Shown here: one piece after another, positions 43,554-64,000 of the stretch
Position numbering within the stretch: the first letter of the stretch is position 1
Layout of the letters: every line of letters begins with the position of its first letter
Origin: Oxytricha trifallax
Taxonomy: Eukaryota; Ciliophora; Spirotrichea; Sporadotrichida; Oxytrichidae
Reading direction: 5' to 3'
Length of the DNA: 64,000 nt
NCBI GenBank assembly: GCA_000711775.1
Contig: ARYC01000075.1
Coordinates: 124,001-188,000, forward strand
Made by a program: the position numbers and the translations under genes
The notes under the pieces: generated by a model
The model's input: the letters and a program-made list of their open reading frames with translations, nothing else
What the model was told of the DNA's origin: nothing
The model's database searches: none

Positions 43554-43948
43554 TACATTTGAAACTGGTAAATTATTATAAAATAAATTAAAATCAAATC
43601 AAATTAGTGGCAGTTAATGTTAGCTAACTTAAACAATTTTGGGCTCATTCAAAAGAGAAGTAAAAAAAGCTGGATTTTTTACAATTTGGGTTCTCTTTAT
43701 TGTATCCCGTTAAGCAATATAACTTAAGTTTTTTAAGGTATAATTTAATGAATTTAGACTTGTTCAATTAAAGTCAATTTTTCTCGATCCAAGAGATGCG
43801 ATAAAAAATACTTCCAATAGTAAAAAGTCCACCTATTTTTGAATTCTCTTTCAAATGAGCCCTAAAAAGTTTAAGTTAACCAACATTAACTGCCATTAAT
43901 TTGATTTTATTTAATTTATTTTATAATTACTTCCCAATTTAGAATGTA
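43554..43948. mobile_element. MITE-like element with ~97-bp terminal inverted repeats
   Basis: The sequence from about 43554 to 43658 matches the reverse complement of about 43846-43948 at high identity. Examples are GGCAGTTAATGTTAGCTAAC on the left against GGCAGTTAATGTTGGTTAAC on the right, and GGGCTCATTCAAAAGAGAA against GGGCTCATTTGAAAGAGAA. The outermost bases are TACATT on both sides. The total length is about 395 bases with a central spacer of about 190 bases that shows no coding signal. Long inverted repeats on a short non-coding body fit a non-autonomous DNA transposon (MITE). I see no clear target-site duplication. The transcript could fold into a long hairpin. Confidence 0.85.
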
Positions 43949-48599: not shown

Positions 48600-48955
48600 T
48601 ATGTTAATTATAATAATATTAAATTAGTTTTATATTATTAATAAAAAAGTTTTTAAATTATTATAAATAAATTTGCAGATTCAATTTAATGATATTGTTA
48701 AAATCATAATTTAACAAACAATTTATTTTTAACATTTAAATAATTTTTAAAACTCAAAAATTTAAAACAGTAACCTATTAAATACAAATATGATATTTTA
48801 TTAGATGATTGATTTAAATCTCTCAATTTAAAAATTAAGTATTAAGTTAAAAATAAAGATTTTTGTATTGGTTAATTTTTATATATTCTAAATGATTATA
48901 ATAAAAAATTATATTGATTCTTGAAAAATCATTGATAAGGGAAAAAACCTATTTC
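48600..48955. other. AT-rich spacer, nothing specific
   Basis: A/T-rich DNA between the channel-like fragment and the kinase-carrying element. Confidence 0.6.
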
Positions 48956-49060
48956 ATTATCGATAAAATACATAAAAAATAGGTAAATTGGTATAAGTGC
49001 AAATGAAGATTAGGAAACATTAAATATAACAGTCACGTTTTTAATATATCAATAAATTAA
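48956..49060 (+). repeat. Left terminal inverted repeat of the kinase-carrying element
   Basis: 105 bp; 104 of 105 positions match the reverse complement of 50371-50475. The single difference is in AGATTAGGAAAC against AGATTAAGAAAC. Confidence 0.9.
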
Positions 49061-49189
49061 AGTTGTGTATTGGGGTTTATGATATATAATTTATTAATCA
49101 TGCTCAATTCTTTGTTTAATTTAAAGATTTTTAAAATTCAAACAATATATATGACTAATCTACTATTCATAAATTATTTTTTAAAATAG

Positions 49190-50330
49190 AGAATTGTCCC
49201 TCCTTTTAAAGTTAGCAATCTCCCGAAAATACATCGCATTTTTCAGAGTATTATTCATCTTTTAAGATCTCATATACTATGATTCTGGGAGTACCAGATA
49301 TATTATCAACCTGGAATTCAGAATTAATTTCTTCAACTAGCCCAGGTCAGCTACTGTAATTCTTAATGAGCCGATATCTTGAAAGATTAAGGATTTCTTG
49401 TTTTTATGTCTTTATGCAAATACCACTTTAAGTTCATTTACTGCAGACCCAATAATAACGACTGCATTAAACATTTTGCTTCAATGTCATCTATGAAATT
49501 TTACTGAATGATTATTTTATATGAATCGCCTTCCTCATAATATTCCATCACAATGAGAGTGTGAGTGGAGGTGTCAAATACTTAATATATTTTGACAGCG
49601 TATTTCTATTCTGCGAGACTTCTAATTACATGGATCTCTCTGCGAAGTAAATCTTTATCGAATGACTCTTTATACACTGCCTTTACTGCAACTTTTTAGG
49701 CATTTTCATGAAGTAGGGAATCATTAACAACTTAGGCTCGATAAACTTCTGAAAATTTACCAGTTCCGATTTAATTTTGCAATGAATAATATGTGAATAG
49801 AGGATCTGCAATAATGACATAACTTGAGAGTTCCTTCAGCAACTTTCTAAACTTCTGCTCATTACTTTTAAAGTTGAATTTTAATTCTTAGTTAAATTAG
49901 GCGATAGTTGTAGCTTCTTACAGGTCAGTAGCTCCAGTTGCACACTCCGCTTTCAGCATTTATGTTTTCTTCTTATTAATCAGCTGTGCATTGTGAGAGT
50001 GATCTTTACATCAACAATGATTTAAGGTGCTTCAATATCTAGCGGCATTTGTGGCAAGGGGTTGAAAGGAGAGCAAAATCTACATCCACAAAAAAGTCCT
50101 ATCGCCAGTTCCCGACAGTCGCATTATACTCTCTGATTCAGCCTCTCATTTCCAAATCAATTATCGTCTACTCTTCTTCTAGGCATCGATGTAAATATAT
50201 ATGTCATCTAAAAATAATTATTTTTAGCATTTAGAATTTAAAACATTGAAGAACTATTTTTATAAATAACTTACTGATGTATTTTGCCTTCTGTTCTTCA
50301 GGTAATCTATCCGATTGGTCTTTAACAGTA
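49190..50330 (-). pseudogene. Truncated serine/threonine protein kinase inside the inverted-repeat element
   Basis: Minus-strand ciliate-code reading shows kinase landmarks in order: glycine loop IGTGKFSEVYRA (about 49735-49770), VAVK lysine (about 49681-49697), helix-C Glu in LLRREIHVIRSL (about 49640), hinge LIVMEYYEEGDS, catalytic loop HKDIKTRN (about 49392-49417), a DLG in place of DFG (49346-49348), GTPRIIVYEIL as the activation end, and YSEKCDVFSGD (about 49217-49250). Reading then stops near the inverted repeat, so the C-lobe after subdomain IX is missing. Upstream, ADPLFTYYSLQNQ leads in, and a segment with WKR-type spacing may be a PH-like domain. An intron (GTAAGTTATT to TATTTTTAG) lies near 50175-50270. 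At least two frame changes and in-frame TGAs show that it is no longer a working gene. No APE motif is intact (VYE instead). Confidence 0.8.
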
Positions 50331-50370
50331 GCAATAATTCTTTCTAAAATATTAATTACCTTTATAACAA

Positions 50371-50475
50371 TTAATTTATTGATATATTAAAAACGTGACT
50401 GTTATATTTAATGTTTCTTAATCTTCATTTGCACTTATACCAATTTACCTATTTTTTATGTATTTTATCGATAAT
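50371..50475 (-). repeat. Right terminal inverted repeat of the kinase-carrying element
   Basis: Reverse complement of 48956-49060 with one mismatch. It ends ATTTTATCGATAAT on the plus strand. Confidence 0.9.
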
Positions 50476-52624: not shown

Positions 52625-55095
52625 ACAGCTTATTTAAAAAAATTATATGATTATTTAAATTTGTATAATACTTAAAAATTACTGATTCAAGCTGCTTTAG
52701 TTTAACCTAGAAATACTAGGTCGATAAATATTTATGAACTAAAACCTTTGCATTTAATTAAAATTTAATTTATGGCGGTATAATTACTTCTTTACATTTA
52801 AAATTTAAATTAATTAAAGGTTTGGTATAATATATTAAATGGATTTGAGATTTTTTTATTATTTTAGTTTCATTTAAATTTAGAAAAAATCTCTAACTCT
52901 ATTATTCTTTCACCTCCAGTTGCTTTATTTCCTGTTCTTCACTCATAATGACAGAATTTTTCAGCTTTGCTTCAGTTAATGATTAAGAACAGAAAATAAA
53001 GCTCCGAAAATACTACTATAAGTTATAAAAAAAGATTCACTAAATTTTTATGAAACTAAATTATTATCTAAATCTAAATCAAAATTTATTATGATAAATC
53101 GCACAGCCAATTAATTTTTAATCTATATCAAAACAATTATTCACTTAGTTTTATTTCACTTTCAAGAGTGTTTTAGTTTTTCAATTCATCCAAAACATAT
53201 TTGATGAGAATGAATGCATGAAATTAAATAACTTTCTTTTAGAATTGAAAATATTGTTTTTTTATCAATATGTATGCTTTAATAAACGTGTTAATTATAA
53301 ATAATAACTTATAAATACTTTAATTATTGTTTAAAAATTATTTGATTATTATACCAATCCTATTATATATCAAGAATAAATACTACGAATTTATTTACTA
53401 ATAACCATATAGATTCATTGAATTTTATTAGATTTCTGAGGAAGAAAAACTAAATACTAGTATGGTATAAACATTTAAATAGACTTTCATACATAAATAG
53501 TTTTTGTTTACGAGAAACATGCTCTAACGAGGAAATCATTAAAGTAAAAAAGATTTTTAAATTATAAAATTAATTAATTTTTAAAGAAAAATTTAATCAT
53601 ATTAGATGTTTAATAGTGAAAATATTAATTACTAAAAACTAATATTAAAACATTCTATTAAAATTTAATATGAAACAAATAAAATAAGTGTTCTGTCAAT
53701 ATTTATAAAATACATAAAAAATATGGTAAAATAATTAAGTAAAAATATTAACTCACTCTAAATTTAATAGAGTGTAATATTTTATTTTAATGATAAAAAG
53801 TGAAATTTTATTTTCATTTTATTGAATAGTATGCAATGAGTATGAATAATTAATTTACTATTACTATTTTGTATATAGTTATATTTTAAATTTTTAAATG
53901 TCTTTTCTCCAGTAAAGAAACCAAAACTGAAGGAAATATATTGTGTTATGAACATGAATTGATTTGGAATTGATAAAACTTTATTTTAACACACTTAAAT
54001 TCAAAATTATTTATAAATTATTATAAAAATAACTAATAAAAAAATTTAATTTGTCTTATATTCAAATAGGTAAATTTTGTCAATAATTATTATTAAAATA
54101 TAGTTAATTTTTTTATTTATTTATAAATAAATGAAAGTAAATACAGCAAAAAAAATTAATTAATTGAGTCATTAAAATTTAAATATATAAAGGTTGAGTT
54201 TTATTATTTTAGTTATTCAAATCAATAATTCTTTATTTTAAATTTTAAAATTAATTTTTATTTTTACAAGTTATTTAATTTGCTTCATTTTTATTTCAAC
54301 ATATCACTCTAATTTAAAATATACAAACTTAAAATCCCGTTTAATTATTTTTTAATAGTTTAAGTTTATTATAATAAGATTTATTTTAAAGTTACCTGCA
54401 AATATTGAATTTATTATAACAAGATTATGAAATTTTAATTTGCTTGTTAGTTATTTTGGTAGCCAAAAAGTTAAAAATTAATCCTTCTTTATATGCTTTT
54501 TTCATTAAATTACTTAATGTTTAAGGTAAATAAATTATTTTAAAAAATATATATTATTAATCTATTAAACATGGAACTTTTGTAAATTCTTATTAAAAAA
54601 AGATTTAAATATTCTCAAAGTTTATGAAAGCGATCAAATAATATTTTTAACATTAATTGATTTATAATTTATTTAACAGCGTTTTATTATTGTAACCTAC
54701 CAATCTATATAAATTTTTGATAAGCATTTGTTTAAATAATATTTAAGTCTAAGAAATGTTTTATTTTTTTCCTTCTCTTATCAATTTAATATTATATGCA
54801 TTTTTATCATTTACTTTGAATATAGACATAATTCTTTGGCTACTCAAAAAATAATTCTTGTTAATAACAATTTGCTAAATGATGAGTTGTATTTTTATTA
54901 TATAAGAGGAATAAGTAAAGTTTATAAAAATAATCTAATTGTATTAAAATAAAGATAATTGTTGACTAAATTTGGCTTATATTTAAGAAAGTTTGATAAA
55001 TAAAATCTCAATAAATTAAGTAGGCATTTACATAATTATTGCTTTTTCTATTCAGAATATTTTAATTATATTTAGTAGGAATAGTAATAACTTAG
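52625..55095. other. AT-rich interval, nothing specific
   Basis: A/T-rich sequence. A small hairpin ACCTAG-AAATA-CTAGGT lies near 52707-52724. No gene is supported. Confidence 0.5.
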
Positions 55096-55359: not shown

Positions 55360-56790
55360 AGCCTTGAATTTCGAGGGTGTCCTGCCAGCTCACTGAATCT
55401 CACTTCAAAATCTTCGTTTTCGTTCTCAATCTGATCTTTTACATCATATCTCTCATAACTATGTCATCCCACCATTATTGCCTAGGTACTCATCTGCTTG
55501 TTGCCATAGTAGTTTGTTCTTCATTTCCTTGTCATTTCCCATCCCCTTCCTTACCGAACCCTCTTCTAAGTTTAACATGAGGTAGTCTCTCTACATATTT
55601 ATACAATCTATCCAATCTTTGGCAAAGATTTGGAATATAGGTTCCCCTTGAAGATCTAGGACTAGATGGTTGATTGTAAATATGGAGATGATTCCGCAGT
55701 CCTCTGGATCTTTCACTTTGTGAAGTTCTGTTTTGCTCTCAATTTTCTTCATTCAGAATATTTAACCTAGAGTGCCTTCCATTAAGTCATTTAGCTGTCT
55801 GATGCGCTTTGAATTATCGCTTAGCTATCGACCTCCTGGTGTCGTACACTTCCAGGATCTTCGAGTCTCACATTATTCTAAAATTATCCAATTCAGGCAA
55901 TTTTTTATGTTTCCTTGACAGCAAACTGGAAGTATTATTCCTAAATTTTCTTCCAGTTGTCTAAACAATCTGCCGTTCTCCACTTTATAGTGATTCGTCC
56001 AAATGGCTCTCTTAAAGCTTTGAATCCTGCTGTCATTCACGACTATTGGTGGAAGAATTATAAAGTCGTTGTTTCCTTGGTTGAATTAAACTTCTCCAAT
56101 TAAGTTCGAAGTCATTTCTTTGGTCTCATCTGTGATGTGTTTTCCCGGATTATGTCAAAGTGCTTCTAATCTTAGATTATTTCCTAGTAATTATTGTGTT
56201 GTAATTTTGACCATAAATCTTACTCTTTCTCCTTTCTTCTTCTTGCTTTCTTCCTGTAATTGTATTTTCTTACCAAATCTTTTTTTAGTTTTGCTCATGT
56301 GCTCGTGCAGCAAACTATCGTAGTTATTCATGACACTGTTCAGTCTTTATTTGTTCTTCGAGAAAATGATTTTGTCAAATCCTTTGCACTAGACTTTCTG
56401 TTAAATCTATCAACATTTTGAGCTCCATCTGATATTCTTGGATACTTTGTATATCCGTCTTCGTGTTTGTCTAAGTGGTATTTAAGCCTTAGATTCGTGA
56501 ATTCTCTTACTTGTGTTGATTTTCCAATTTTAGCTTTTTGCTCTTCAATCCCATTTTTATTTTAGTGGAACTCTTGCGCTTTAATCACTTGCAATTTCCA
56601 GAACCTCATTGTCTTTCGATCTGCTATTGTTATTTAATCAAGCCTCCTGCACCTTCTGCCACAAATCCCTTTTCTTGTTATATTAATCTAATCTTCCCGA
56701 TCTTCCTGTTCTTCGTTCTTTGCTCTCTTCTTTTCTGAAGCTTTTTACTGAATTTTTATTAGTTCATCGTCCTTATTTACTGCCATAATA
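55360..56790 (-). pseudogene. Protease-like ORF (Ulp1/C48-type cysteine protease), broken copy
   Basis: ATG at about 56794 begins MAVNKDDELIKIQQKASEKK, a charged N-terminus. The C-terminal half contains RAIWTNHYKVENGRLFRQLE, an NCLNWIIL segment and VKDPEDCGIISIFTINHLVL, followed by EPIFQIFAKDWI. The DCG with a preceding Asp/Glu stretch is the nucleophile motif of Ulp1/adenain-like cysteine proteases, which cleave SUMO-type or structural precursors. I am less sure of the matching His and Asp positions. The ORF at 63.4-64.0 kb is a close homologue. This copy is broken in a few places. Neighbouring LINE sequence on the same strand suggests that it belongs to that element or to one inserted beside it. 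A Polinton origin for this kind of protease cannot be excluded. Confidence 0.55.
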
Positions 56791-63360: not shown

Positions 63361-63406
63361 ATGAAAATTGTAACTCCATATAAAATATTTAAATATAAAA
63401 CTATAG

Positions 63407-64000
63407 GATGACAATGGATTGAGAGGAGCAGAAAGATGGATAGGTTCTACTAACTGGAAACTAGACAATGCGAAGTTCTGGAGAGACCAAGAAGAAATTG
63501 AAAACATTATCATCCCCAAAAGTTGTCAGAGTAAGATGAAGAATTGCCAAAACTGGGTAATCATGAAAGTAGAGAGGAACTCAAAGCAACTGGAGATATT
63601 TGATGTGAGAAAGAACGTTGAGAGCCTAGCAATAATCAAAAAGTTCGTGAAACAACTGAACTAAATGACTCAAGAGACAGTAGGTCCTCAATTCAGAGCT
63701 GAGAGAGTGACCAGCAAAGTAGAGACCAATTAAGTTAGAGACCCAGAAGACTGTGGAATGTTGGCTTTGCTTATAGCAAATCATTTGGCGTTAGAATTGG
63801 AAGGAGACCCAATATTCTAGATCTTCGCAAAAGATTGGATTAACATGCAAAGATATTATCTCATGTTCAATCTAGAAGTGGGATACAACAAAATGGAGAT
63901 TGGCAAATCGGGTTTAGCAATTGTGGAAGAAGAGGCAGAGAAAAACTTAGAAAAAAGAAGCTCATTAATATGGAAACAGGCGGACAAACAGATGGGGGTA
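63407..64000 (+). CDS. Ulp1/C48-like cysteine protease ORF, clean but cut by window end
   Basis: A continuous ciliate-code frame from just after a TGA at 63362-63364 to the window edge, about 200 protein-like codons at roughly 42% GC. TTAAATATAAAACTATAG before 63407 could be an intron end, so the true start may lie upstream. Segments: GSTNWKLDNAKFWRDQEEIE, a KNCQNWVIMKV segment, QLEIFDV, then NQVRDPEDCGMLALLIANHL with the nucleophile Cys codon at 63752-63754, and DPIFQIFAKDWINMQRYYLM. It aligns over about 150 residues with the broken copy at 55.4-56.1 kb. Three in-frame TAA/TAG codons are read as Gln, and Trp is always TGG. DCG preceded by Gln is typical of Ulp1-like proteases. The element family is not certain. 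Confidence 0.65.

Follow-up and report, generated by a model that had tools for sequence, protein, structure and literature searches.

The 64,000-nucleotide stretch of Oxytricha trifallax DNA analyzed here (contig ARYC01000075.1, positions 124,001 to 188,000; hereafter the window, numbered from its first letter) contains, at 48,956 to 50,475, a truncated protein kinase gene enclosed between two near-identical inverted repeats. With a probability of roughly 0.5, we read this structure as a DNA element, dead and non-autonomous, that measures about 1.5 kb, is bounded by terminal inverted repeats (TIRs), lies in germline-type ciliate DNA and carries a fragment from the 5' part of a kinase gene. 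The parts of the element are listed in Table 1.

A preliminary description of this DNA had reported near-identical 105-bp inverted arms, and this was borne out. The only mismatch between the arms was found at arm position 58, where the left arm has G and the right arm has A. The pair scored 205, whereas among inverted repeats within 3 kb the highest score was 74 in 12 control sequences of 64 kb simulated with a Markov model. The flanking sequence was distinct on all four sides, and identity broke off sharply at each arm edge. The outer end of each arm is a perfect 10-bp palindrome, TTATCGATAA. Because this palindrome creates direct repeats by construction, direct repeats of 2, 4, 6, 8 or 10 bp were all formally present at the element ends, and neither a target-site duplication nor the transposon superfamily can be read from them. 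One known type of end was ruled out: the piggyBac-type excised internal eliminated sequences of Tetrahymena have TTAA ends and an internal CACTTT repeat (PMC5182062), whereas the arm starts with ATTATCGATAAAATAC.

The interior was read with the ciliate code (code 6), in which TAA and TAG encode glutamine. An open reading frame (ORF) on the minus strand, 49333-50010, contained 14 such glutamine codons and no internal TGA, and by itself it matched positions 1-128 of the Pfam Pkinase domain (E 2.3e-19). When the relic was joined across two frameshifts, the match was extended to positions 1-185 of 263 (E 4e-31). Both frameshifts lie between HKDIKTRN (49393) and LVEEIN (49340), with the segments following in the order HKDIKTRN, ITVADLG, LVEEIN. 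The best PDB matches found by phmmer were Ser/Thr kinases of the CAMK/CDPK type. The catalytic lysine, the aspartates and a GTP motif were recognizable, and VYE stood in place of APE. The relic spans the glycine loop to subdomain IX, and the final third of the domain is absent. The Pfam scan of the interior gave one truncated, frame-shifted kinase, no further domain and no recognizable transposase, in agreement with the earlier claim that a truncated minus-strand kinase is the only coding content between the arms. The kinase was also said to stop at subdomain IX, next to the left arm. The subdomain was correct, since the last matching stretch is KCDVFSGD (49218-49241), but the position was not: homology gives out at 49218, which leaves about 157 bp between it and the left arm.

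Table 1. Parts of the element, in window positions.
Feature	Position	Strand	Remarks
Left inverted-repeat arm	48956..49060	+	105 nt, ~20% GC; outer end is the palindrome TTATCGATAA
Spacer, left arm to end of kinase homology	49061..49217	.	157 bp, mostly AT-rich; no Pfam continuation
Relic of a protein kinase domain; best PDB matches CAMK/CDPK-like	49218..49794	-	Pfam Pkinase; phmmer against PDB
Coding-like GC-rich DNA upstream of kinase domain	49795..50207	-	Frame-shifted; Cys/His-containing stretch near 50039-50077
Candidate intron GTAAG...TTTTTAG	50208..50274	-	67 nt, 15% GC, GC-richer flanks; sequence signals only
Candidate upstream exon	50275..50360	-	Weak: 50277-50345 with 33% GC and open frame
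Right inverted-repeat arm	50371..50475	-	104/105 identical to left arm, inverted orientation

The arms and the subterminal spacer are AT-rich, in contrast to the 34% GC of the gene fragment. Within the spacer, GC falls to 12-20% at 49080-49199, where no domain matched; the spacer could be subterminal DNA of the element, an unrecognized gene remnant or an intron. On the other side, the coding-like DNA reaches about 50345-50360, some 10 bp short of the right arm. No significant domain was found by Pfam in the part upstream of the kinase domain; a zinc-finger signal (E 0.022) failed the cut-off. The preliminary description had called the kinase intron-bearing, and the candidate intron in Table 1 supports this by its sequence signals. 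Because the fragment apparently holds an intron, the template for the gene piece was apparently DNA rather than an mRNA.

If the two frameshifts in 573 bp are taken as a clock, about 4 to 7 differences between the arms would be expected, compared with the single one seen (P 0.07 to 0.006). This estimate assumes 6-10 substitutions per indel and takes all decay as having occurred in place. The result is suggestive of arms younger than the decay of the kinase, with the qualification that only two frameshift events were counted and that the decay is possibly older than the element. The earlier statement that the arms are far less diverged than the kinase is a weak inference from one mismatch and two frameshifts. 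If the structure is an element of the kind proposed here, its arms would have stayed so alike because it formed recently, because the ends are under constraint, or because one arm was converted by the other.

In the reading that we prefer, the arms would be transposon ends on which a transposase from another locus acted in trans. The kinase fragment may have been taken up between the two ends by gap-filling repair or template switching, the routes known for Pack-TIRs, and it probably has no present function. Capture from a host gene is plausibly the likelier origin of the fragment. The more far-reaching proposal, a Pack-type family of TIR elements in the ciliate germline by which parts of somatic genes would be copied into the DNA that the working nucleus discards, there to decay unseen, is tentative, and we regard it as possible rather than probable. 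Such gene capture had been proposed in the preliminary description, and the anatomy fits it as a non-autonomous TIR element with a gene fragment, but no further copy of the arm above chance was seen in the window, IMG/VR or GTDB, and no target-site duplication could be fixed.

Several observations weigh against reading the structure as an element with a captured gene. No second copy of the arm above chance was found in the window, in IMG/VR or in GTDB genomes, and the arms matched no nameable element. With their palindromic ends they offer no assignable target-site duplication, and the kinase match stops 157 bp from the left arm rather than at the arm edge. No confirmed relatives of the kinase were found in GTDB or IMG/VR, and none in phage records; these three collections are prokaryotic or viral, so negatives there say little. 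At 53696-53746, a short stretch rich in AT resembled the arm's outer part (26 bp at 96%) but was not counted as a solo arm: the segment 53705-53730 scored 43, above 60 Markov windows (maximum 39) but within the range of 150 randomized arms (up to 51).

Some of these observations also speak for an unlikely, though serious, alternative, namely a kinase pseudogene around which AT-rich spacer DNA was duplicated locally in inverted orientation, by template switching or in the repair of a break, and in which a transposon had no part. It accounts for the lack of further arm copies in the window, IMG/VR and GTDB, for the lack of a fixed target-site duplication, and for kinase homology that stops short of the arm. 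The window also holds two older fold-back palindromes (43554-43948 and 1164-1786), so inverted duplications may be common there. However, these palindromes could be terminal-repeat elements themselves, and arms with sharp ends at a spacing of 1.3 kb are what terminal-repeat elements usually show.

It is improbable, in our view, that the kinase was never captured but belonged to the transposon from the start, the structure being a degraded and internally deleted relative of a kinase-carrying Tc1/mariner element such as the telomere-bearing elements (TBEs) of Oxytricha. The kinase relic, the Cys/His-containing stretch upstream of it and arms of similar length all resemble TBEs. The arm, however, lacks the TBE-type telomeric repeat; by TBE criteria, no C4A4 telomeric sequence was found in the arm and no unequivocal ANT duplication at the ends. 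The C-terminus of the kinase is cut off, the gene holds a candidate intron, the zinc-finger signal is not significant, and homologues of the 57kD protein of TBEs were not found even in Urostyla (PMC4724952).

An assembly artefact, in which arms longer than a short read would have led to a false join or a false inverted copy, is highly improbable: near-identical 105-bp arms are hard for short-read assemblers, and the interior could be wrongly oriented, but the one-base difference and the distinct flanks on all four sides indicate that the arms were assembled as separate places. We give hardly any credence to the arms being flanking repeats with a regulatory role, by which the limits of an eliminated germline segment are defined; many Tetrahymena deletions are bounded by inverted repeats equidistant from both ends, but the best-studied example described for them involves a polypurine motif of 10 bp that lies about 45 bp beyond the deleted DNA and not a pair of near-identical 105-bp arms (PMC6547420).

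The window as a whole has 22.8% GC, which is close to the Tetrahymena value. Among the 76 candidate ORFs scanned with Pfam, taken from its GC-rich parts, a credible match was obtained only for the kinase and for one Ulp1-like protease, and no transposase domain was found. The few Pfam matches, together with the fold-back palindromes, suit germline-limited, repeat-rich ciliate DNA. The Ulp1-like (C48) protease was located at 63365-64000 on the plus strand (E 0.00019), and a paralogue that has diverged from it (36% amino-acid identity) lies in inverted orientation at 55480-56037 on the minus strand; this protease domain occurs in several transposon groups. No relative of the Ulp1-like protein was found in IMG/VR. 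Of the two palindromes, that at 43554-43948 is a 395-bp imperfect fold-back that is 75% self-complementary, with a DNA folding z-score of -13 and a possible TA at both ends, and resembles a miniature inverted-repeat transposable element (MITE). The other, 623 bp long and also imperfect (70%), adjoins an array of tandem repeats of about 19 bp, CTGGGACGTCCTGATATC, and the long inverted repeats and short tandem repeats of this region (984-1786) resemble the organization of the Tlr elements of Tetrahymena. Just outside the left arm, the segment 47800-48600 is coding-like, with GC up to 38% and no credible family match. A palindrome beside the same arm (48722-48857) was rejected, because its score of 68 lay within the controls (up to 74). 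Searches of the window gave no RNA families or tRNAs, no Tetrahymena chromosome-breakage sequence and no ciliate telomere repeats.

On present evidence this is one relic, and the explanation for it is ordinary. Should there be copies that hold other contents, the shuffling of gene fragments by DNA transposons, as seen in plants and animals, would extend to ciliate germlines, and captured fragments would find shelter in the eliminated DNA. If the reading is true, a gene piece enclosed by inverted arms would also lend itself as a source of double-stranded RNA.

Elements with inverted repeats are well known from ciliate germlines. In Tetrahymena, recently active cut-and-paste DNA transposons with TIRs have been described (PMC5182062). 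The TBEs of Oxytricha and related stichotrichs are Tc1/mariner elements with terminal repeats of 78-138 bp, 93-96% alike within one element; they have a 42kD transposase ORF, C4A4 telomeric sequence in the terminal repeat, an ANT target duplication, and, 23-44 bp from the TIR, a 57kD ORF with zinc-finger and kinase domains (PMC4724952). The element described here resembles them as a ciliate germline element with terminal repeats of comparable length and a kinase domain in one protein, but it has no transposase, its ends lack the telomeric repeat, its kinase is truncated and holds a candidate intron, and only one copy was found. Because TBEs natively carry a zinc-finger and kinase ORF, a kinase within an inverted-repeat element of a ciliate germline is neither new in itself nor proof of capture. 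Long near-identical ends are likewise already known in ciliates, and it is the capture of a host gene fragment that would be new, according to the literature searched, which yielded no report of Pack-type capture in a ciliate; such a negative is weak evidence of absence. The germline-limited MITEs/MITIESs of ciliates, namely BogoMITE of Blepharisma and the MITEs reported in Paramecium, are likewise non-autonomous and have inverted repeats, but they are shorter than 500 bp and non-coding (PMC9942856), whereas the kinase element is 1.5 kb long and carries a gene fragment. The solo terminal repeats of the Thon element, Tc1/mariner inverted-repeat relics in Paramecium germline DNA, also differ from it, being palindromic, about 700 bp long and without a captured gene (PMC3464196).

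A further likeness in anatomy is to the Pack-TIR, Pack-MULE and Pack-TYPE elements of plants and animals, in which TIRs enclose a fragment of a cellular-type gene. As in these elements, no transposase lies inside, the fragment has a candidate intron, and the size of the interior is within the 0.1-5 kb range applied to Pack-TIRs, whose formation in animals was ascribed to gap filling or fork switching (PMC8277862). The differences are that here the arms are tied to no known element, one copy and no donor gene were seen, no target-site duplication is assignable, and the host is a ciliate.
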